This document shows, piece after piece, positions 26,968 to 37,091 of a stretch of 40,700 nucleotides of DNA (positions within the stretch are counted from its first letter, which is position 1; the number at the start of each line of letters is the position of its first letter). Source of the stretch: Eubacteriales bacterium (GTDB taxonomy: Bacteria; Bacillota; Clostridia; Lachnospirales; Lachnospiraceae). The notes beneath the pieces were generated by a model. It was given only the letters and a program-made list of their open reading frames with translations. It made no database searches and was not told the DNA's origin. The stretch spans positions 1-40,700 of the forward strand of contig JAUNSV010000012.1 of NCBI GenBank assembly GCA_030539055.1. Direction: 5' to 3'. A program made the position numbers and the translations under genes.

Positions 26968-28419
26968 TTACATAATTGGTTTTTTTCTAAAATGTGTACA
27001 GTCTTCAAAAGAGTAAGCTATACTTATTATTTCTCCCTCGCAAAATGGTTTTCCCATAATTTCTAATCCTATAGGTACACCAAGTGGTGCATCATCACTT
27101 TGTGAAGAAAAACCAGCTTGTACTACTATTGCAGGAAAACCTGTTATTGATGCTATTGCACCATTTCTTTCTTCTTGCTGGAATCCAACTTTACATACAA
27201 GTTGTTGTTGGTGTGGATAAATAATTGCATCAATATTATATTTATCAAATAAATTTAAAATTTCTTTTTTTAATTCTGCTCTTTTTTCTAGTCTATCTTT
27301 ATACTCTTTTGAATTAATTTCAATTTTATTTGCATATATAACATTTTCTTCAATATCTTTTGTATATTTTTTGCTTTTTAATAAATCATCTAATGAATGA
27401 ATCGGACTTTCATATTTAATTAAATAATTATATAAATCTGATTTAAAATCATATAAATGTAAACTAATATCTTTTACAAGATGTGAAGAGCTTATTTTTT
27501 CTTCAATATCTACTAATATTGCTCCTTGTTCTTTTAATATATTAAAACAATTAATCATACAATTATTTACTTCTTTATGCTCTTCTTTTGAACCCATAAA
27601 AGATTTTAGTATTCCTATCCTTTTTCCTTGTAGATATCCTTTAATTAAATTCTTAGTATAATCATGTGTTTTTTCTTTTTCTTCAAAAGTTGATTCATCA
27701 TTTTTATCATATCCTACAATTACATTTAATACTTTTGTAGCATCTTCAACAGTTCTAGCTATTGGTCCAACAGTATCTTGTGTGAGTGAATAAGGTATTA
27801 TACCATCTCTTGACACTAGCCCTATACTTGGTCTTATTCCACAAAGCGAACAAGCAGAAGATGGAGATCTTACAGAATTAATTGTATCTGTACCTATTCC
27901 TACTAGTGCAAAATTTGCTGCTATACCTGCTCCTGTTCCACCAGAAGACCCTCCAGGTGTTCTTGTATGATCATAAGGATTATAAGTTTGTCCTAAAATT
28001 GATGATACTGTTTCCCCCCATATAGCAAATTCATGTAAATTAGATTTTGCTATTATTATTGCTCCAGCTTTACGCAATTTTTGAACTATAAAAGCATCTT
28101 TCTTAGTATTAAAACTTTTTAAAGATAAAGACCCAGCTGTTGTAGGCATATCATAAGTTTCACAATTATCTTTTAAAAGAATACAAACACCATGTAATTC
28201 TCCAATTAATTTATTATTATTTTTAAAATACAAATCTAATGTCTTTGCTTCATTAATAGCATTTTCATTTATTAGAATTATAGAATTTAATTTTGCATTT
28301 TGTTTATCATATTTATTTATTCTATCCAAATATAATTTTGTTACTTCTTCGCAAGTAATTTTTCCAGAAAGAAGTGCATTATGAAATTTTTTTATTGTTA
28401 ATTCTTCAATATCAAACAT
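26968..28419 (-). CDS. Amidase-signature family hydrolase
   Basis: This is a Ser-cisSer-Lys amidase of the GatA/malonamidase family. The catalytic Lys is K83 (LLKDN). The cis-Ser lies in PGGSSGG (158-159), and the nucleophile is probably S182 in GTDTINSVRSPSS, where the usual GGS is INS. At 483 aa it has the family length. It is not GatA of a GatCAB complex: no gatB or gatC is adjacent and the active-site segment differs. It is the last gene of the decarboxylase operon, 21 bases after the OadB-like gene, with AGGAG before its ATG. Known family members include malonamidase, so a role in releasing malonate from an amide is attractive but is inference. Confidence 0.88.
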   Translation of the reverse strand: MFDIEELTIKKFHNALLSGKITCEEVTKLYLDRINKYDKQNAKLNSIILINENAINEAKTLDLYFKNNNKLIGELHGVCILLKDNCETYDMPTTAGSLSLKSFNTKKDAFIVQKLRKAGAIIIAKSNLHEFAIWGETVSSILGQTYNPYDHTRTPGGSSGGTGAGIAANFALVGIGTDTINSVRSPSSACSLCGIRPSIGLVSRDGIIPYSLTQDTVGPIARTVEDATKVLNVIVGYDKNDESTFEEKEKTHDYTKNLIKGYLQGKRIGILKSFMGSKEEHKEVNNCMINCFNILKEQGAILVDIEEKISSSHLVKDISLHLYDFKSDLYNYLIKYESPIHSLDDLLKSKKYTKDIEENVIYANKIEINSKEYKDRLEKRAELKKEILNLFDKYNIDAIIYPHQQQLVCKVGFQQEERNGAIASITGFPAIVVQAGFSSQSDDAPLGVPIGLEIMGKPFCEGEIISIAYSFEDCTHFRKKPIM

Positions 28420-28440
28420 AATCTATCTCCTATTCAAATA

Positions 28441-29613
28441 TTATATTTGTTGAAAAAATAATAGCAATAATCCAGCAGCTACAGCAGAGCCTATTACTCC
28501 AGCTACATTTGGCCCCATTGCATGCATAAGAAGAAAATTAGTTGGATTATATTTTTGTCCTTCTTTTTGTACTACTCTTGCAGCCATAGGTACAGCAGAT
28601 ACTCCAGCTGCTCCTATCATTGGATTAACTTTTCCTTTAGATACAAAACACATTATTTTTCCTATTAAAACACCAGCTGCTGTACCTATTGAAAAAGCAA
28701 TTAATCCAAGTAAAATAATTTTTAATGTAGATGGATTTAAAAAAGCACTTGCACTAGCTTTTGCACCAACAGTTAATCCTAGCATAATTGATACAAGATA
28801 CATTAATGAATTTGTGATAGTATTAACTAAAAAAGGTACTCTTTTAGATTCTTTTAATAAATTTCCTAACATAAGCATACCTATAAGAGAAGTAGCTGAT
28901 GGCAATAGTAAACATGTAAAAATTGTAACTGCAATAGGGAATAATATTTTTTCTGTTTGAGATACTTCCCTTAATTGTTCCATTTTAATTACTCTTTCTT
29001 TTTTTGTAGTAAGTAATTTAATAATAGGCGGTTGTATGAAAGGTACTAATGCCATATATGAATAAGCAGCAACAGCAATTGAGCCTAACAAATGTGGTGC
29101 AAGTTTTGATGTTAAATATAATGCTGTAGGACCATCTGCTCCTCCTATTATTCCTATTGAAGCAGCTTCTGGTCCAGTAAATCCTAGGAAAATAGCTCCG
29201 ATAAAAGTAAAGAAAATACCAAATTGTGCTGCAGCTCCCAATAATAATGATCTAGGATTAGCAATTAAAGGACCAAAATCAGTTCCAGCTCCTATACATA
29301 AAAAAATTAATGGTGGATATATTCCTAGTTCTACACCTTGATACAAGTAATACAATAAACCACCCTTTTCGCCACCAATGATTGGATGATTCATTATTCC
29401 AGCTAAGGGTAAATTAACAAGAAGCATACCAAATGCAATTGGTAATAAAAGATATGGTTCATATTGTTTATGAATAGCTAAATATATTAAAAAACAAGCT
29501 ATACATATCATTATTAATTCACCAGGTACACCAAAACTTCCAAAGAATACAGTTTTAGTAAATAGTTTTGATAAACCCATACTTTGATAGAATCCATATA
29601 ATAATTCTTGCAT
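28441..29613 (-). CDS. Na+-transporting carboxybiotin decarboxylase subunit (OadB/MmdB/MadB family)
   Basis: This is the integral membrane beta subunit of biotin-dependent sodium pumps. It decarboxylates carboxybiotin on the carrier and exports Na+. The 390-residue protein has about ten hydrophobic segments and the family's key loops: GAGTDFGPLIANP (with the essential Asp), GIIGGADGPTA, and the C-terminal NPMIGAAGVSAVPMAARVV and HAMGPNVAGVIGSAVAAG. The order carboxyltransferase / small subunit / biotin carrier / this pump matches methylmalonyl-CoA and glutaconyl-CoA decarboxylase loci. Sequence alone does not say which acyl substrate the complex serves. AGGAG precedes the ATG. Confidence 0.94.
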   Translation of the reverse strand: MQELLYGFYQSMGLSKLFTKTVFFGSFGVPGELIMICIACFLIYLAIHKQYEPYLLLPIAFGMLLVNLPLAGIMNHPIIGGEKGGLLYYLYQGVELGIYPPLIFLCIGAGTDFGPLIANPRSLLLGAAAQFGIFFTFIGAIFLGFTGPEAASIGIIGGADGPTALYLTSKLAPHLLGSIAVAAYSYMALVPFIQPPIIKLLTTKKERVIKMEQLREVSQTEKILFPIAVTIFTCLLLPSATSLIGMLMLGNLLKESKRVPFLVNTITNSLMYLVSIMLGLTVGAKASASAFLNPSTLKIILLGLIAFSIGTAAGVLIGKIMCFVSKGKVNPMIGAAGVSAVPMAARVVQKEGQKYNPTNFLLMHAMGPNVAGVIGSAVAAGLLLLFFQQI

Positions 29614-29635
29614 AATTATTTCTCCTATTTATTAT

Positions 29636-30028
29636 TTATAGAGCTATTAGACCATCCCCTGCATTTACCTTTTGTTGTTTTGAGCATAATATTGCACTTA
29701 CTACTCCATCACTTGGTGAAACTATTTCATTTTCCATTTTCATTGCTTCAATAATGACTAATACATCTCCTGCCTTTACACTTTGACCATTTTGAACTTT
29801 TATTTCAAGAACTGTACCTTGAAGTGGAGCATTTACTATTTGTGAATTTGATGAAATATTAGTTTGTGTTTTTTTAATTTCTTCTTTTGTTTCACTTGCA
29901 ACAGATACATTTTGATTAATTGGTGTACTTTGTACTTTATTTGTTTCACTTGTACTTATTCCACTCATTTCTTCAACTTCTACATCATGTCCTATTCCAT
30001 CAACATAAATTTTAAATTTTTTAATCAT
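29636..30028 (-). CDS. Biotin carboxyl carrier subunit of the decarboxylase
   Basis: This is the mobile carrier that takes CO2 from the carboxyltransferase to the membrane pump. The 130-residue protein has an N-terminal anchor segment (1-20), a flexible Ser/Thr/Asn/Gln-rich linker (about 21-63, in place of the more usual Pro/Ala linker), and a C-terminal biotinyl domain with EAMKMEN, biotin being attached at Lys97. AAGGAG precedes the ATG. It sits between the small OadG-like subunit and the OadB-like pump, the usual place. No biotin ligase gene is in the window. Confidence 0.95.
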   Translation of the reverse strand: MIKKFKIYVDGIGHDVEVEEMSGISTSETNKVQSTPINQNVSVASETKEEIKKTQTNISSNSQIVNAPLQGTVLEIKVQNGQSVKAGDVLVIIEAMKMENEIVSPSDGVVSAILCSKQQKVNAGDGLIAL

Positions 30029-30047
30029 TTTGTTTCTCCTTATATTT

Positions 30048-30236
30048 TTAATTATTTAAGTTAAAATTATCTAATATATTTTGACTCGACCAAATTTTAG
30101 AATAACTTGTTCTTTTGACTTTTTTAACAATTAAATTTTGTTCATTTGTCTTATTATACATTTCAACCGCCGCAGCAATAATAATATTGGATGTATCATC
30201 GTTTTTATTTATTGTTTGGCGGTTTGTTAGGGGAAA
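30048..30236 (-). pseudogene. C-terminal half of the OadG-like subunit, in the -1 frame
   Basis: Downstream of the 60-codon gene, the -1 frame stays open for 60 codons to a TAA at 30048-30050. It encodes the conserved C-terminal part of OadG/MmdD proteins: NIIIAAAVEMYN, then IVKKVKRTSYSKIWSS, which corresponds to the family's hydrophobic AAAV helix and the VKSIRR...W segment. It has no start codon or ribosome binding site of its own. Joined to the first half by a -1 shift at TTTCCCC it gives 120 residues, the normal family length. Whether this is a programmed frameshift, a mutation or a sequence error is open. Confidence 0.75.
30165..30236 (-). promoter_or_regulatory. Candidate -1 frameshift signal: slippery heptamer plus stem
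   Basis: On the minus strand the heptamer T-TTC-CCC (30236-30230) has the X-XXY-YYZ form and is followed at once by the zero-frame stop TAA. Five bases after the heptamer begins AACCGCC (30224-30218), which pairs perfectly with GGCGGTT (30171-30165) across a 46-base loop. This is an unusually GC-rich pair for this DNA. Spacing and order fit a -1 frameshift stimulator; function is unproved. Confidence 0.45.
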
Positions 30237-30409
30237 TTATTAATATCTTCTTTTTTTATTTTTTTAGGTTTATGAAGAATTATTGCTACAGCATCAATCA
30301 TATAAGATATTATCAATAATATTAAAAATACTATTATCATAGAAAAAATTGAAATGAAAAATGCTTCGCCTATTTGAACTTCATTTCCAAATGGAATTTG
30401 TATATTCAT
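30227..30409 (-). CDS. OadG/MmdD-like small decarboxylase subunit, N-terminal half
   Basis: This 60-codon frame encodes a single membrane helix (about residues 14-46) and a short Lys-rich tail ending NNFP before a TAA. It is the N-terminal half of the small gamma/delta subunit that holds the biotin decarboxylase complex together. Family members are usually about 85-120 aa and continue into a C-terminal soluble region; that region is present just downstream in the -1 frame. AAAGGAG precedes the ATG and the gene starts 14 bases after the carboxyltransferase stop. The short product may still be made, but it would lack the conserved C-terminal segment. Confidence 0.85.
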   Translation of the reverse strand: MNIQIPFGNEVQIGEAFFISIFSMIIVFLILLIISYMIDAVAIILHKPKKIKKEDINNFP

Positions 30410-30423
30410 TTATTTTTCTCCTT

Positions 30424-31968
30424 TTATAATGGTATATTTCCATGTTTTTTTAATTGTTTATGTACTCTTTTGGTAGCTAATGTATCAAATGCATTTATTA
30501 GTAGTTTTCTTGTTTCACTTGGTTCTATAATATCATCTATATATCCACGAGAAGCTGCTACATAAGGATTCATCATTTTATCATTGTATTCTTTAATTTT
30601 ATCTTCTTTTGTTTTTATTGGATTATCTGAATTTTTAATTTCTTTAGCAAAAATTATATTTGCTGCTCCATCAGCTCCCATTACTGCTATTTCTGCATTA
30701 GGCCATGCATAAACTAAATCTGAACCTAAATGTTTTGAGCACATTCCAATATATGCTCCACCATAAGCTTTTCTTATAATCACTGTAACCATTGGGACAG
30801 AACTTTCAGAGTAAGCAAACAGCATTTTTGCTCCATGTCGTATTATACCACCATGCTCTTGAATAGAACCAGGCAAAAAACCTGGTACATCAACTAATGT
30901 TAATATTGGAATATTAAATGCATCACATGTTCTTATAAATCTAGCTGCTTTATCTGAAGCATTTATATCAAGACAACCAGCCATACAATTAGGTTGATTT
31001 GCTATAATTCCTATAGATTTTCCACTTAGTCTAATAAATCCAGTAATTATATTTTTTGCATAATTTTTTTGAGATTCAAAAAAATCATTATCATCTGCTA
31101 TTTCTTTTATTATTTCTATCATATCATATGCTTTATTTGGATTTTCTGGTAATATTGTATTAAGTTTTAAACATTGTCTATTATAATCATCATTATTAGA
31201 TATTTCTTCACTTTCTTCTAAATTGTTTTGTGGTAAATAACTTAATAATTTTTTAATTTGTATTATACACTCTTCTTCATTTTTTGCACTAAAATGTGCT
31301 ACACCACTAATACTATTATGAGTAATAGATCCCCCAAGTTTTTCTGCACTTATTTCTTCTCCTATTACTGTTTTAATTACTTGTGGACCAGTAATAAACA
31401 TTTGAGATGTATTCTCTACCATAAAAATAAAATCTGTAATAGCAGGTGAATAAACAGCACCACCAGCACAAGGTCCCATAATTACTGATATTTGTGGAAT
31501 AACTCCAGATGCTTGAGTATTATTGTAAAAAATTTTTCCATAACCAGCTAGAGCATCAACTCCCTCTTGAATACGCGCTCCACCAGAATCATTAATTGCA
31601 ATATGTGGAGCTCCTACTTTTAGTGCCGCTTCTTGATTTTTTGCAATTTTATCGGCATGCATTTCACCAAGAGATCCACCAATTACAGTAAAATCTTGCG
31701 AAGAAGCATATACTAATCTTCCATTAATTTGACCATATCCTGTAATAACTCCCTCAGATGGTGATTCTTTCTTATCCATTCCAAAATCTGTGCATCTTTT
31801 TTTTACAAATAAACCTGTCTCAACAAAAGAATCTTTATCAAATAATAATTTAATTCTTTCTCTTGCAGTCATTTTTCCACTATTATGTTGTTTTGCAATT
31901 GCTTTTTCACCACCACCTTCTCTTAAATGTGCTTTTAAATTAATTAATTCATCTAATTTATTTTGCAT
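30424..31968 (-). CDS. mmdA: Acyl-CoA carboxyltransferase subunit (MmdA/PccB type)
   Basis: This is the biotin-dependent carboxyltransferase that moves a carboxyl group from an acyl-CoA to biotin. It is a single 514-residue chain with both crotonase-like halves: the N half has SEGVITGYG, NDSGGARIQEG and MGPCAGGAVYSPA, and the C half has DVPGFLPGSIQEHGGIIRHGAKM and RKAYGGAYIGMCSK. It resembles methylmalonyl-CoA decarboxylase alpha and propionyl-CoA carboxylase beta, not the split MdcD/MdcE or MadC/MadD pair of classical malonate decarboxylases. A CoA thioester substrate is therefore likely. Given the MdcA-type gene just upstream I infer malonyl-CoA; methylmalonyl-CoA is the alternative. Confidence 0.9.
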   Translation of the reverse strand: MQNKLDELINLKAHLREGGGEKAIAKQHNSGKMTARERIKLLFDKDSFVETGLFVKKRCTDFGMDKKESPSEGVITGYGQINGRLVYASSQDFTVIGGSLGEMHADKIAKNQEAALKVGAPHIAINDSGGARIQEGVDALAGYGKIFYNNTQASGVIPQISVIMGPCAGGAVYSPAITDFIFMVENTSQMFITGPQVIKTVIGEEISAEKLGGSITHNSISGVAHFSAKNEEECIIQIKKLLSYLPQNNLEESEEISNNDDYNRQCLKLNTILPENPNKAYDMIEIIKEIADDNDFFESQKNYAKNIITGFIRLSGKSIGIIANQPNCMAGCLDINASDKAARFIRTCDAFNIPILTLVDVPGFLPGSIQEHGGIIRHGAKMLFAYSESSVPMVTVIIRKAYGGAYIGMCSKHLGSDLVYAWPNAEIAVMGADGAANIIFAKEIKNSDNPIKTKEDKIKEYNDKMMNPYVAASRGYIDDIIEPSETRKLLINAFDTLATKRVHKQLKKHGNIPL

Positions 31969-32012
31969 AATTTTTCCCTTTCAAAAAATTTATTAAAAAA
32001 GTAAAATAATTT

Positions 32013-33635
32013 TTATTTTAAAAATTTTTCTGGTATTTCATATAAACCACCAGAAATATCTCGTATTTCTTCCAAAGATTTTGCTGAAAGCAAATCTCTA
32101 TTTGCCATTGCAACATCTATTCCTAAATCATTTGGCAATGCAATTTTACCCTCATTTCGTAATTCATCAAGTCTTTTATTTGAGCAATATTTTTCAAGTG
32201 GAATTCCTCTAGCAACTCCTGCCAATAATTCTCTTCTTTCTTCATTTGTATTAACCATATATAAATAAGCAATACCCTGCTCTGTAACAACATGTGTTAC
32301 ATCTTCTCCATAAATCATTATGGGGGCGACTTGCATACCTACTTTTTCACCAATTTTAATAGCTTCTAATTCTTCTTTGAATGCAGGACCAAATTTCGAA
32401 TTTGTTTTCAATATTTGTACAACTAACTTTCTTCCACCTCTTAAAGGTCTTTTAAGATCTCTAATTGAGTGCCATGCTTCACTATAGTGTCTTCGTCCAC
32501 TAGAATCATGCCCCATATTTGGTGCCCCACCAAAACCAGAAATTCTTCCAGAAGTGACTGTTGATGAATTACCAAAATAATCCATTTGTAATGTGGCTCC
32601 TAAAAATAAATCCATTCCATATAATCCAGCTAATTGGCAAAGTGGTCTATTTGAGCGAAGTGAACCATCTCTTCCTGTAAAGAAAATATCTGGTCTAGCT
32701 TTGGCATATTGTGCCATTCCTGTTTCGCCACCAAAAGCACACAAAGATTTTACCCAACCATTTTCTATTGCAGGAATTAATGTAGGATGAGGATTTAAAA
32801 CCCAATTTGTACATATTTTACCTTTTAAATTTAGTTGTTCACCATAGGTAGGTAAAATTAATTCTATAGCACATCCATTATAACCAATACCGTGATTTAA
32901 AGAAGTAACATGATGTTTTGCATATATTCCTTTTATTACCATCATAGCTTCTAGAATGTGTACATCTTGAATTTTTTTAGGGTCTCTAGTAAATAATGGC
33001 TCCATTGGAAAAGGACTGTCTGCTTGTACAATTACATCTACCCAATCTCCAGGAATATCTATTCTTGGGACTTTATCAACTATCTTATTAACTTGGCAAA
33101 TAACTAATCCATCTTTAAATGCTGTGGCTTCAACAAGAGTTGGTGTTTCTTCAGTATTTGCTCCTGTATATAAATTACCGTCTTTATCTGCCATATCAGC
33201 AGCGACAAGGCACACATTAGGTATTAAATCTACAAATAATCTTGCATATAGTTCAAAATAAGTATGAATTGCACCAACTCTTACGACACCACTCTCAACT
33301 AATTTTGATAATCTTTCTGATTGTACTCCCGCAAAAGCAAAATCAATTAATTGAGCTATTTTTTTTTCAAAAAGGTCTAAATGTTCATCTCTTGATATAG
33401 ATGGTATAATTAAATGAATATCATTAACTTTATTATTATCAACTTTAGTCATAGCTTCTGCAAGGAATGAAGCTTGTTTTTGATTACAACCCTCTAAAAT
33501 TAATTTATCTCCTTTATGAATTGCCAAATTTAAAACATCTACTATATCTTCTGTATTAACTATTTTTCCATTTAAATATTTAGAAATAGAATTTAATCTT
33601 TCTAATTTTTTTTTCCTATTTTCATCCCAAGCCAT
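32013..33635 (-). CDS. mdcA: Malonate decarboxylase alpha subunit (MdcA/MadA family transferase)
   Basis: This is an acetyl-thioester:malonate transferase, the activating subunit of malonate decarboxylases. The 540-residue protein carries segments I recognise from that family: EGCNQKQASFLAEA, GAIHTYFELYARLFVDL, DIPGDWVDVIVQA, LNHGIGYN, SGFGGAPNMGHDSSGRRH, RGGRKLVVQ and PIMIYGEDVTHVVTEQGIAYLY. In the classical enzyme the acceptor is an acyl-carrier subunit with a CoA-like prosthetic group; no such subunit or its synthesis genes is near. Here it precedes a CoA-type carboxyltransferase, so free CoA may be the carrier (inference). AAGGAGG lies 11 bases before the ATG. It is the first gene of the operon, divergent from lysR. 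Confidence 0.88.
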   Translation of the reverse strand: MAWDENRKKKLERLNSISKYLNGKIVNTEDIVDVLNLAIHKGDKLILEGCNQKQASFLAEAMTKVDNNKVNDIHLIIPSISRDEHLDLFEKKIAQLIDFAFAGVQSERLSKLVESGVVRVGAIHTYFELYARLFVDLIPNVCLVAADMADKDGNLYTGANTEETPTLVEATAFKDGLVICQVNKIVDKVPRIDIPGDWVDVIVQADSPFPMEPLFTRDPKKIQDVHILEAMMVIKGIYAKHHVTSLNHGIGYNGCAIELILPTYGEQLNLKGKICTNWVLNPHPTLIPAIENGWVKSLCAFGGETGMAQYAKARPDIFFTGRDGSLRSNRPLCQLAGLYGMDLFLGATLQMDYFGNSSTVTSGRISGFGGAPNMGHDSSGRRHYSEAWHSIRDLKRPLRGGRKLVVQILKTNSKFGPAFKEELEAIKIGEKVGMQVAPIMIYGEDVTHVVTEQGIAYLYMVNTNEERRELLAGVARGIPLEKYCSNKRLDELRNEGKIALPNDLGIDVAMANRDLLSAKSLEEIRDISGGLYEIPEKFLK

Positions 33636-33843: not shown

Positions 33844-34716
33844 ATGAATTTTAATCAACTAAATGTATTTTTATGTACTGCAAAATATGAACATTTCACA
33901 AAAGCATCAAATGAATTATTAATTTCTCAGCCATCATTAAGTAGAATTATAAAAGAATTAGAGAGTGAACTTGAAGTACCTTTATTTACAAGATATAAAA
34001 AGAAAATTACTCTTTCAGAATATGGAAAAGTACTTTTAAAACATACAAATAATATTTTTTCTGAACTTAATGATATAAAAAGTGAAATATCTGATATGAG
34101 AAATGATACACAAAAAAATGTATCTTTAAGTTTATACTCAGCTTCTACTCCTTTTCAAAAATTAATTGCTTCTTTTAATAAAAAATATCCAAATATACAT
34201 TTAAAAATAATACAATATGGCATGAGTGAAAAAGAAGAATATGAAACTGATTTATCACTTTATTCTACAATAATACCAATACATAAAGAAAATAATATTC
34301 AACTTTTAGAAGAAGAAATATTACTTGCTCTACCAATAAGTATGAATTATAAAAGTGAAAAAATTGTTGATTTATCTGATTTTAAAAATAAAGAATTTAT
34401 CTGTTTACAAAAGAAAAAAGATTTAAGAGAAATTACAGATTATTATTGTGCTTTGTCTGGTTTTTCTCCAAATGTAGTATTGGAATCTGATTCTCCATCA
34501 ACAATAAAACAATTTATTAGTCTTGGATTAGGTATATCATTTGTTCCAAGTATAACATGGAAAGATGTAAAAGATTCAAAAATAAAATTATTACACATTC
34601 AAAGTCCTAAATGTAAAAGATATATTAACCTTTCATGGAAAAAAAATTCTTATTTATCTAAAGCAAGTTTACTCTTTAAAGATTTTGTTATTAATAATTT
34701 TAATAATTATTTATAA
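33844..34716 (+). CDS. LysR-family transcriptional regulator
   Basis: This is a LysR-type regulator of 290 aa. The N-terminal winged helix-turn-helix (residues 1-60, with HFTKASNELLISQPSLSRIIKELE) is followed by a substrate-binding co-inducer domain (about 90-290). It is divergent from the MdcA-type gene, as LysR-type MdcR regulators commonly are in malonate operons, so it probably activates that operon in response to malonate or a derivative (inference). AGAGG precedes the ATG. A DUF2156-GNAT gene follows 19 bases later on the same strand and may share the transcript. Confidence 0.93.
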   Translation: MNFNQLNVFLCTAKYEHFTKASNELLISQPSLSRIIKELESELEVPLFTRYKKKITLSEYGKVLLKHTNNIFSELNDIKSEISDMRNDTQKNVSLSLYSASTPFQKLIASFNKKYPNIHLKIIQYGMSEKEEYETDLSLYSTIIPIHKENNIQLLEEEILLALPISMNYKSEKIVDLSDFKNKEFICLQKKKDLREITDYYCALSGFSPNVVLESDSPSTIKQFISLGLGISFVPSITWKDVKDSKIKLLHIQSPKCKRYINLSWKKNSYLSKASLLFKDFVINNFNNYL

Positions 34717-34735: not shown

Positions 34736-36184
34736 ATGAATAACTATATTAACAATATAGAATTTGAACCTTTATCTGAAAAAATATTTAATAAATTAAA
34801 TAATATTTTTTCAAAATGTCAATTTCAAATAACAGAATACTCTCTTGGTACATTAATTATTTATGATAATATTCTACATTCTAAATTTCATATTGATAAT
34901 AATTATTTAATAATTAAATTTAACTACAATAATGAAATAATCTTTCAATATCCAATTGTAACAATTAATGAAAATAATGATGAAATAGAATTTTTAGCTC
35001 TTTTAAAAATTGAAGAATATTGTATGTTAAATAATTTATCACTTAATATTGTGAATATTCCAGAAGCAAAAATAGATAAAATAATAAAAAGATATCCCAA
35101 TATTAATATTAATTGTATAAGAAAAAATAAAGACTATATATATAATGCTAAAGAATTAATTGATTTTCCAGGTAGAGTCTATTCAAAGAAAAAAAATCTT
35201 ATTAATCAATTTAATAAAAATTATATAAATTCTAATTTTAGAAGACTTACTATAGATGATATTAATATTATTAATGATTTTTTTATTGAATATGAAAAAA
35301 GTATAATAAAAGAAAAAACTAAAGAAGTATTAGAAGAATTACTCTTTTCTAAGATTATTTTTCAATATTTAAAATATGATTTCTTTTATGCAGGTGGTTT
35401 ATTTATTGATAATAAATTAGTTGGAATTAATATTAGTGAAATCTCTGGTAATACTCTAATAACTCATATAGAAAAAGCATTATATCAATATAAAGGTATT
35501 TATACAAAATTAATGAATGAATGCTATAAAAATTTTCCCAAAATATTTGATTATATTAATCGTGAAAATGATATGAATGATAAGGGTTTAAGAAAAGCAA
35601 AATATCAATATAAACCACTATATTTATTAAATAAATATTGGATAAAATGTGATAATATTTATTTTAATAAAATAACAAAATTACCTAGTATACAAACAGA
35701 GCGATTATTAATAAATGAAATATTAGAAGAAGATATTAAACTTTATAATGAATTAATTTATGATCTTGATAGAAATAAATTATGGGGAAACGATGATATA
35801 GCTGATGCAAAAAATATACTAAAAATTGATAATTTAAACGATAATAGTTTTTTTAATGTACAAGAATATTATTTTAATAATAAAATACAAATATCTCTAG
35901 CTATACGATTAAATAAAATATTAATTGGTGAAGTTTTATTATATAATTATGATTTTAGAGGCAATATAGAGATTGGTATAAGAATAAATAAAAAATATAA
36001 TAACTTGGGTTATGGTATAGAAGCATTTAATGCTATTTGTGATTATGCTTTATATGATTTAGGATTCAATAAAGTAAAAGCAAAATGTTTAAAAGAAAAT
36101 ATTCAATCAAAAAAAATGATTTTAAAAAGAATGCATTGTATAAATGAAGATGAAAAATATATTTTTTTTGAAAGCGATATATAA
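34736..36184 (+). CDS. DUF2156 domain fused to a GNAT acetyltransferase
   Basis: Residues about 1-305 match the DUF2156 family, related to the C-terminal domain of phosphatidylglycerol lysyltransferases and itself built from tandem acetyltransferase folds. Visible marks are GRVYSKKKNLINQF and YINRENDMNDKGLRKAKYQYKP. Residues about 315-482 are a separate RimJ-like GNAT domain beginning TERLLINEI, with the acetyl-CoA loop NNLGYGIEA. The same DUF2156 marks recur in the convergent gene at 36210-37091, which lacks the GNAT part. The substrate is unknown; transfer of an amino acid or acetyl group is suggested by the folds. AAAGGAG lies about 14 bases before the ATG. Confidence 0.82.
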   Translation: MNNYINNIEFEPLSEKIFNKLNNIFSKCQFQITEYSLGTLIIYDNILHSKFHIDNNYLIIKFNYNNEIIFQYPIVTINENNDEIEFLALLKIEEYCMLNNLSLNIVNIPEAKIDKIIKRYPNININCIRKNKDYIYNAKELIDFPGRVYSKKKNLINQFNKNYINSNFRRLTIDDINIINDFFIEYEKSIIKEKTKEVLEELLFSKIIFQYLKYDFFYAGGLFIDNKLVGINISEISGNTLITHIEKALYQYKGIYTKLMNECYKNFPKIFDYINRENDMNDKGLRKAKYQYKPLYLLNKYWIKCDNIYFNKITKLPSIQTERLLINEILEEDIKLYNELIYDLDRNKLWGNDDIADAKNILKIDNLNDNSFFNVQEYYFNNKIQISLAIRLNKILIGEVLLYNYDFRGNIEIGIRINKKYNNLGYGIEAFNAICDYALYDLGFNKVKAKCLKENIQSKKMILKRMHCINEDEKYIFFESDI

Positions 36185-36211
36185 AAAGAAGCAATATTAT
36201 TGCTTCTTTTT
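36183..36211. terminator. Bidirectional rho-independent terminator
   Basis: A perfect 13-bp stem pairs AAAAAGAAGCAAT (36183-36195) with ATTGCTTCTTTTT (36199-36211) around a 3-base loop, with A and T runs on both sides. It separates two convergent genes and serves both strands. Confidence 0.92.
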
Positions 36212-37091
36212 AATTAATAATTTCTACACAATATTTTTTTAATATTATTGTTGGATGATATTGCATTTTTGATATTTCTAATCCTTTATCTCCTACTGTT
36301 TCTTCCCTATTTATATATTGAACATCACTTGCATATTTTTTTGCAAATTCATTCATTAACACTTGATAAGAACCTTTATAATTCATATTTGCTTTTTCTA
36401 TATGAGCATATAATACATCTTCTATTATTTCTCCTGCAGCTACGCCTACAATAGTATCATTTACTTTTAAAATTATACCATGCATTTTATATTTTTCAAA
36501 AAAATCAAACACTTCATAAGTCTTATATAATTCCTCTTTAAATATAATAGAATTTTTATTTTCATAAAGTGAAAATTTTTTTAAAAATTCTTGAGCATTA
36601 ATTATATTATTTGAATTTAATTCCAATACTGACCAATTATTGTAATGAGATTTAAAATAATTAATATGATTTCTTTGCCCTGAGTACTTTCTTCCCTTTA
36701 ATTCAATTAAATCGATTGCATTATATATATAATCACTCCAATCTATTAATTCTTTAGTTATTATATTATAATTTGATGAATATAAGCACAAATCATCTTC
36801 TGCAACAGGGCAAAAAAAAGTTTTAATACTTTCATTTTTTGTGTATTCTATTATTTTATTAATTGAATCAATTGGATTTTCACCCATTGGAGTAGCAAAA
36901 CAAGTGCCAATATTAGGATCTTTCATTCTAAATAATAAAGTATTATCTATAATCGAGTACCATGTATCAAAAAAATCTCTCCACATAACACTTCCACCAA
37001 TTGTATTATCACATGCAAGACTATTGGAGTATTCAAAAAATGGTCTGATAATATCTATATCATCTATAGTAAGCTTTTTAAATTGTATCAA
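36210..37091 (-). CDS. DUF2156 domain protein
   Basis: This 293-residue protein consists of a single DUF2156 region with LKGRKYSGQRNHINYF and YINREETVGDKGLEISKMQYHP, the same marks as the first part of the convergent gene at 34736. The family is related to the transferase domain of aminoacyl-phosphatidylglycerol synthases, but no membrane flippase part is present here, so it acts in the cytoplasm. The start is a TTG preceded by AAAGGAAA. It lies 11 bases after the DUF362 gene and is probably co-transcribed with it. The function is unknown. Confidence 0.85.
   Translation of the reverse strand: MIQFKKLTIDDIDIIRPFFEYSNSLACDNTIGGSVMWRDFFDTWYSIIDNTLLFRMKDPNIGTCFATPMGENPIDSINKIIEYTKNESIKTFFCPVAEDDLCLYSSNYNIITKELIDWSDYIYNAIDLIELKGRKYSGQRNHINYFKSHYNNWSVLELNSNNIINAQEFLKKFSLYENKNSIIFKEELYKTYEVFDFFEKYKMHGIILKVNDTIVGVAAGEIIEDVLYAHIEKANMNYKGSYQVLMNEFAKKYASDVQYINREETVGDKGLEISKMQYHPTIILKKYCVEIIN

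Follow-up and report, generated by a model that had tools for sequence, protein, structure and literature searches.

The window (the whole stretch of 40,700 nucleotides that was analyzed) is one contig (C38) of a 1.51-Mb assembly of 83 contigs, which is 99.3% complete, and it carries an operon that joins an MdcA-type alpha subunit to the components of a predicted sodium pump (Table 1). The genes are arranged on the minus strand from position 33635 to 26968 in the order MdcA–MmdA–OadG–biotin carrier–OadB–amidase, and a LysR-type regulator gene is located divergently 208 bases upstream. Carboxyltransferase, AMKM biotin carrier, and OadB-type beta subunit together represent the set of a Na+-translocating decarboxylase, and the operon would encode a variant of this class of enzymes; an MdcC/MadE acyl carrier is absent from it. 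Outside the OadG region, the intergenic gaps amount to 14 to 44 bases and AGGAG-like ribosome-binding sites are present at five of the six gene starts, which makes a single transcript plausible. An earlier note on this DNA had placed the genes at these positions, and the family matches in the window confirm that the operon is real.

Table 1. Genes of the operon and its divergent regulator (positions in the window)
Feature	Position	Strand	Matches and remarks
Divergent LysR-type regulator	33844..34716	+	PF03466/PF00126 matches
MdcA-type alpha subunit, 540 amino acids; candidate acetyl-CoA:malonate CoA-transferase	32013..33635	-	PF16957, TIGR01110
Single-chain MmdA-type carboxyltransferase, 514 amino acids; proposed malonyl-CoA to carboxybiotin step	30424..31968	-	TIGR01117, PF01039
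OadG-like small membrane subunit	30048..30409	-	PF04277; frame broken ~30206-30236
Biotin carrier protein	29636..30028	-	PF00364, 68.4 bits; EAMKMENEI, AMKM motif
OadB-type carboxybiotin decarboxylase/Na+ pump	28441..29613	-	TIGR01109, 485 bits
Amidase-signature hydrolase; proposed malonamate amidohydrolase	26968..28419	-	PF01425, 316.8 bits

The MdcA, MmdA, biotin carrier, OadB, and amidase genes listed in that note were recovered as described, but the OadG-like gene is not a single open frame. A reading frame of 60 amino acids (30227-30409; PF04277 28.6 bits, cut-off 27) terminates prematurely; the remainder of OadG was located by tblastn with the OadG proteins of relatives in another frame at ~30060-30206. 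Since OadG is intact in the four relatives compared (122 to 124 amino acids), the break is treated as a probable assembly error or recent lesion.

The assignment of the 540-amino-acid protein to MdcA, on which the earlier note depended, holds. In Pfam and NCBIfam, MdcA is the sole family matched by the protein (PF16957, 844 bits; TIGR01110, 788.1 bits, i.e., 1 bit under the cut-off of 789.15), and all PDB matches at an E value of 0.001 are MdcA structures (5vit/6mpr). The residues tied to MdcA catalysis, i.e., Tyr134, Arg228, Asn258, Ile261, and Gly381 (PMC5534430), are kept in the window as Tyr126, Arg217, Asn247, Ile250, and Gly370. They are invariant in 40 rows from loci with MmdA (MmdA-type) and 43 rows from loci that lack MmdA but have MdcC- and MdcD-like genes (carrier-type), except for the Ile261 position, which is Val or Leu in 4/40 and Val in 1/43 rows, respectively. 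As acetyl-coenzyme A (acetyl-CoA) has been modeled into the MdcA pocket by placing it from a CoA-transferase structure (PMC5534430), CoA might in principle fit there.

The MmdA-type carboxyltransferase reached 859.3 bits with TIGR01117 (cut-off 998.8) and 654 bits with PF01039; the TIGR01117 cut-off was dropped as a test of identity because it is passed by 0/291 genomes of the class. Ile407 occupies the position of Asp407 in propionyl-CoA carboxylase (6ybp), but this residue was abandoned as proof of malonyl-CoA specificity, as 30 other MmdAs carry either Ile (15) or Leu (15). OadB clearly exceeded the TIGR01109 cut-off (190.6), and by a hand-read numbering its Asp160, Ser339, and Asn369 align with Asp203, Ser382, and Asn412 of Salmonella OadB (6iva), which are the Na+ ligands of that protein (PMC7274780). 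Sequence matches to solved structures are strong for MdcA, MmdA, OadB, and the amidase.

The same gene order, whose recurrence in other genomes the earlier note had regarded as informative, is found beyond the window. Among 146 related genomes PF16957 matched in 16, of which 12 were over the cut-off and nine had a full-length match (one in the window, five in other genomes of the genus, and three elsewhere in the family). The five same-genus genomes keep the order of the window, with one contig (L028) ending after OadG, and a Hungatella genome (G058) has this order minus the amidase; G031 and G045 contain carrier-type clusters. LysR is located at the same position in the genus (40 to 45% identity) and in Hungatella (46 to 47%). 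A scan of species genomes with seed peptides from MmdA-linked MdcA resulted in 170 confirmed loci, the best 80 of which comprise 38 in which MmdA adjoins MdcA, 41 carrier-type loci, and one (L055) that ends 67 bases past MdcA; due to the choice of seeds and of the best 80, the values 38/80 and 41/80 are not frequencies. The 38 MmdA-type loci, which include six genomes already named (L038-L042, L071), have hosts that include Lachnospiraceae, Erysipelotrichaceae/Solobacterium, Oscillospiraceae, Clostridiaceae, two Hungatella species, and one Spirochaetaceae metagenome-assembled genome (MAG). None of them (0/38) has MdcC, MdcD, MdcE, or CitG in the DNA examined. OadB is present in 32/38; of the six loci without it, five lie on contigs that are cut short, and L053 extends about 1.4 kb past the carrier without an OadB match. 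Locus L071 is the named strain Hungatella hathewayi DSM 13479, and the presence of the core operon in this strain makes its function testable. A comparison of MdcA with plasmids matched 49 records, every one with less than 60% identity.

Both proteins differ according to their partner. In an unrooted MdcA tree of 83 rows one branch separates 39 MmdA-linked sequences (plus L055) from 43 carrier-type sequences (Shimodaira-Hasegawa-like approximate likelihood ratio test, 99), and a second tree with 38 of the 83 rows shows the same split with a support of 100/100; on each tree the partner type switches once, with L055 left unlabeled and uncounted. A class-wide MmdA search was positive in 139/291 genomes, and in an unrooted tree with the 30 best-scoring loci, a choice that favors classical MmdA, the 39 MdcA-linked rows part from these 30 by a branch with a support of 100; no MdcA was found in the examined DNA around the 30 loci. 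Since both trees split by partner, the simplest reading would be that MdcA and MmdA have been inherited jointly for a long time. Six columns separate MmdA-type from carrier-type MdcA (window positions 78, 98, 254, 338, 453, and 477), of which position 254 directly follows the catalytic Asn-Ile loop, and they are candidates for residues that govern the choice of the carrier. An MdcA adjoining MmdA should not by default be annotated as an acyl carrier protein (ACP) transferase, and the MdcA clade is a sequence candidate for malonate CoA-transferase.

We consider it probable that the operon encodes a CoA-cycling, biotin- and Na+-dependent malonate decarboxylase, and we infer free CoA as the carrier as well as the substrate, the ion, and the direction of the reaction. 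MdcA would convert acetyl-CoA and malonate to malonyl-CoA and acetate, MmdA would transfer the carboxyl group of malonyl-CoA to the biotin carrier and thereby regenerate acetyl-CoA, and OadB, held by OadG, would decarboxylate carboxybiotin and export Na+. The net reaction would be malonate + H+ to acetate + CO2 with the build-up of a Na+ gradient. Two known modules would thus be joined to a malonate decarboxylase that seemingly does not need a dedicated carrier protein. Such a CoA-based cycle had been put forward in the earlier note, and the MdcA family match, the conserved gene order, and the lack of a mutase support it as the best explanation. A role of the amidase, for which that note gave none, is proposed here: the enzyme may supply malonate intracellularly, with malonamate made by an AllFGH-type transcarbamylase in an oxidative uracil route as the most likely precursor.

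The membership of MmdA with TIGR01117 also fits a decarboxylase pump for methylmalonyl-CoA or another acyl-CoA, in which MdcA would load methylmalonate or another diacid. A supply of methylmalonyl-CoA by a mutase was rejected, as TIGR00641 had no match in any of the seven genomes searched (0/7; controls, 8/14). Methylmalonate could instead originate from thymine via 5-methylbarbiturate by the pyrimidine route discussed below, and a version in which thymine is converted via methylmalonate to propionate could operate alongside the malonate cycle. The separate grouping of the MdcA-linked MmdAs, the retained catalytic residues of MdcA, and the six loci in which MadL/MadM flank the operon speak against this alternative, which we regard as unlikely.

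With respect to the acyl carrier, the earlier note was right that the operon lacks carrier and prosthetic-group genes, but the genome as a whole has them. Contig 77 (L024) contains the single PF06857 match, a CitD-type ACP, together with CitF, CitC, and a fused CitX-CitG, and adjoins a methylaspartate mutase. An acyl-carrier malonate decarboxylase in which the only MdcA of the genome (G000) borrows this carrier can thus be envisaged. However, the cluster has its own CitF, and this together with the neighboring mutase lets it read as a citramalate/citrate lyase of the methylaspartate route of glutamate fermentation, which employs citramalate lyase (PMC8473912), and not as the malonate system elsewhere in the genome that the note had considered a threat to its proposal. 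Furthermore, MmdA-type enzymes use CoA thioesters, as is also indicated in PMC8473912, and a linked carrier is found in 0/38 MmdA-type versus 41/41 carrier-type loci, so that a borrowed carrier appears very improbable. In the whole genome, PF01039 matched two proteins, MmdA of the operon and a divergent paralogue encoded on contig 20, neither of which is of the MdcD type; PF06833 (MdcE) and MdcG were not searched there. Together with a 108-amino-acid protein at the OadG position and an OadA-type subunit (NF008985, 721.5 bits; cut-off 718), the paralogue, a second carboxyltransferase with 34% identity to MmdA and a run of unknown residues, forms what looks like a transcarboxylase-like set (L023, 1478-4596).

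A further alternative is that the operon serves biosynthesis rather than energy conservation, providing malonyl-CoA either from malonate or through a reversal of the pump driven by Na+. Dimroth and Hilpert (1984), to judge by the title, reportedly carboxylated pyruvate and acetyl-CoA by reversing the oxaloacetate and methylmalonyl-CoA pumps, which would also be a precedent for the chemistry of the malonate cycle. None of the six genomes of the genus that carry the operon (G000, G001, G002, G005, G008, and G012; completeness, 75 to 99%) has an AccD over the cut-off, which only 6/14 controls pass; the weaker matches in the six trace back to the operon MmdA, the paralogue on contig 20, and a single broken fragment. 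FabD was not found in the same six genomes either, so that there is no obvious consumer of malonyl-CoA; the supply of fatty-acid synthesis, which these genomes may lack, was set aside for this reason. In addition, the Hungatella genome G058 has the operon beside its own AccD and FabD. A biosynthetic function is the least probable of the explanations considered.

Several observations weigh against the CoA-cycling malonate decarboxylase. It is built on activities deduced from sequence, the known function of MdcA is that of an ACP transferase, and at the thresholds used its two types differ in no more than six columns. Ile407 of MmdA does not discriminate between substrates, OadG is frame-broken in the window, and the trees lack an outgroup. 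An MdcA match occurs in 6/13 genomes of the genus and in none of the other seven, some of which are 92 to 95% complete, and the selected 80 loci give no frequencies. Finally, the genome can make the prosthetic group of an acyl carrier (CitX-CitG, CitC), which leaves room for borrowing.

The neighborhood of the operon provides clues to the substrate. MadM and MadL flank it in six Erysipelotrichaceae loci (L046-L049, L051, L052), e.g., with 243.9 bits for MadM of L047 (cut-off 236.3) and 104.2 bits for MadL of L049, which is under the NCBIfam cut-off of 113.45 and over that of Pfam. AEC carriers are encoded near the operon in eight loci (the carrier of L047 is over the Pfam cut-off only), which together with MadL/MadM amounts to nine Erysipelotrichaceae loci, and a DASS transporter in three others (L064, L071, L076). 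MadLM and MdcF have been reported to raise the malonate-dependent product in Escherichia coli (PMC12303837). The amidase is located at the position seen in the window in 9/38 MmdA-type loci, none of them transporter-bearing, and 17/38 have neither amidase nor transporter, with flanks of unequal length. The lack of any locus with both the amidase and a MadL/MadM, AEC, or DASS transporter suggests that the amidase may take the place of uptake as a malonate source; its nearest PDB match is peptide amidase (1m21), followed by a weaker match to malonamidase E2. Biotin ligase is present in 7/7 genomes, and ten loci (L046-L049, L051, L052, L060, L066, L075, L078) have BirA-type genes close to the operon. 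An ATP synthase operon is located downstream of the decarboxylase in six loci, and in the four that were read (L046, L047, L051, L052; F-type) helix 1 of the c subunit contains an additional glutamate. This c subunit resembles by eye the two-carboxylate Na+ rotor described in PMC3692424, with Thr instead of Ser after the conserved Glu.

Compared with known systems, the operon shares with the Mad system of Malonomonas rubra an MadA/MdcA-type transferase, a biotin carrier, a membrane carboxybiotin decarboxylase, and predicted Na+ coupling, and six related loci also share the MadL/MadM importer. In contrast to Mad, which uses a specific acyl carrier (PMC7274780), the operon has none, a single-chain MmdA replaces MadC/MadD, and OadB does not fit TIGR03136, the Na+-transporting malonate decarboxylase subunit (180.5 bits; cut-off 596.9). 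The biotin-independent Mdc of Klebsiella and Pseudomonas has MdcA in common with the operon, which differs by the lack of MdcC/D/E and by its biotin carrier and membrane pump (PMC5534430). MmdA, the OadG-like subunit, the biotin carrier, and the OadB-like beta subunit are shared with the Veillonella-type methylmalonyl-CoA decarboxylase, from which the operon is distinguished by its MdcA, the separate MmdA branch, and the lack of a mutase match in the seven genomes searched. Anaerobic malonate breakdown in Sporomusa malonica is said to proceed via malonyl-CoA according to older work. The activity proposed for MdcA corresponds to malonate CoA-transferase (EC 2.8.3.3), which is tabulated without a KEGG function number in PMC8307300. 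No description of a CoA-based, Na+-pumping malonate system or of the pyrimidine route outlined below was found among the open-licence PMC texts listed, judged by their titles and the beginnings of abstracts.

The origin of malonate may lie in pyrimidines, a proposal that is bolder and less certain than the malonate decarboxylase. In four same-genus genomes (G002, G005, G008, G012), the amidase is followed by AllF, AllG, a cyclase, three molybdenum hydroxylase subunits, and a uracil/xanthine-type permease, which suggests a route from uracil via barbiturate, ureidomalonate, and malonamate to malonate. The window's genome has the corresponding genes on contig 69 (PucR-AllH-AllF-AllG-cyclase-Mo-hydroxylase-permease), and a carbamate kinase is located about 15 kb past the permease; carbamate kinase is present in 6/7 genomes and was not found in G012. 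Ureidomalonate and malonamate are the one-carbon-longer analogues of oxalurate and oxamate. AllFGH is the oxamic transcarbamylase of E. coli, in which each single deletion of AllF, AllG, or AllH abolishes oxamate formation or nearly so (PMC11326118). The molybdenum hydroxylase would oxidize uracil to barbiturate, the PF04199 cyclase, our ring-opening candidate, whose structure match is weak, would yield ureidomalonate, and the AllFGH-type transcarbamylase would phosphorolyse it to malonamate and carbamoyl phosphate, from which carbamate kinase would form ATP. The operon amidase would then convert malonamate to malonate, and the CoA-cycling MdcA-MmdA-OadB complex would decarboxylate malonate to acetate while building up a Na+ gradient. 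Uracil, and perhaps thymine, may in this way be fermented completely without oxygen, with energy conserved twice, via carbamoyl phosphate and the Na+ gradient, and we see the chances of this as evenly balanced. Pyrimidines are known to be broken down oxidatively to malonate (PMC3758960); here, the cyclase and the transcarbamylase would stand in for barbiturase and ureidomalonase (AtzD-type barbiturase was not searched), and carbamate kinase on the same contig sets the arrangement apart from that pathway. Against the uracil link, the permease and the hydroxylase would also fit purines, the closest curated models being xanthine dehydrogenases, PucR is a name from purine catabolism, the AllH query had no match in the four same-genus loci, and the operon and the contig-69 cluster are unlinked in the window's genome. 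If true, genes could be assigned to uracil oxidation, an alternative barbiturase, ureidomalonate transcarbamylase, and malonate CoA-transferase, pointing to a possible way for gut anaerobes to live on pyrimidines.

A comparison of the cyclase with plasmids matched 55 records, four of which were inspected. Two Halorussus plasmid loci (L175, L176) encode homologues with 43 to 44% identity near xanthine-dehydrogenase-type genes and nucleobase permeases, possibly for an archaeal nucleobase oxidation; a Haloarcula plasmid has only nucleobase permeases nearby, and Rhodococcus ruber neither. In the Spirochaetaceae MAG (L070, 1-840), a nucleobase-permease-like gene with 31% identity to the uracil-type permease lies upstream of the MdcA operon. 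Beyond the regulator, the window encodes two LPG_synthase_C (PF09924) proteins (34736-36184 and 36210-37091), the first of which is fused to a GNAT acetyltransferase domain.

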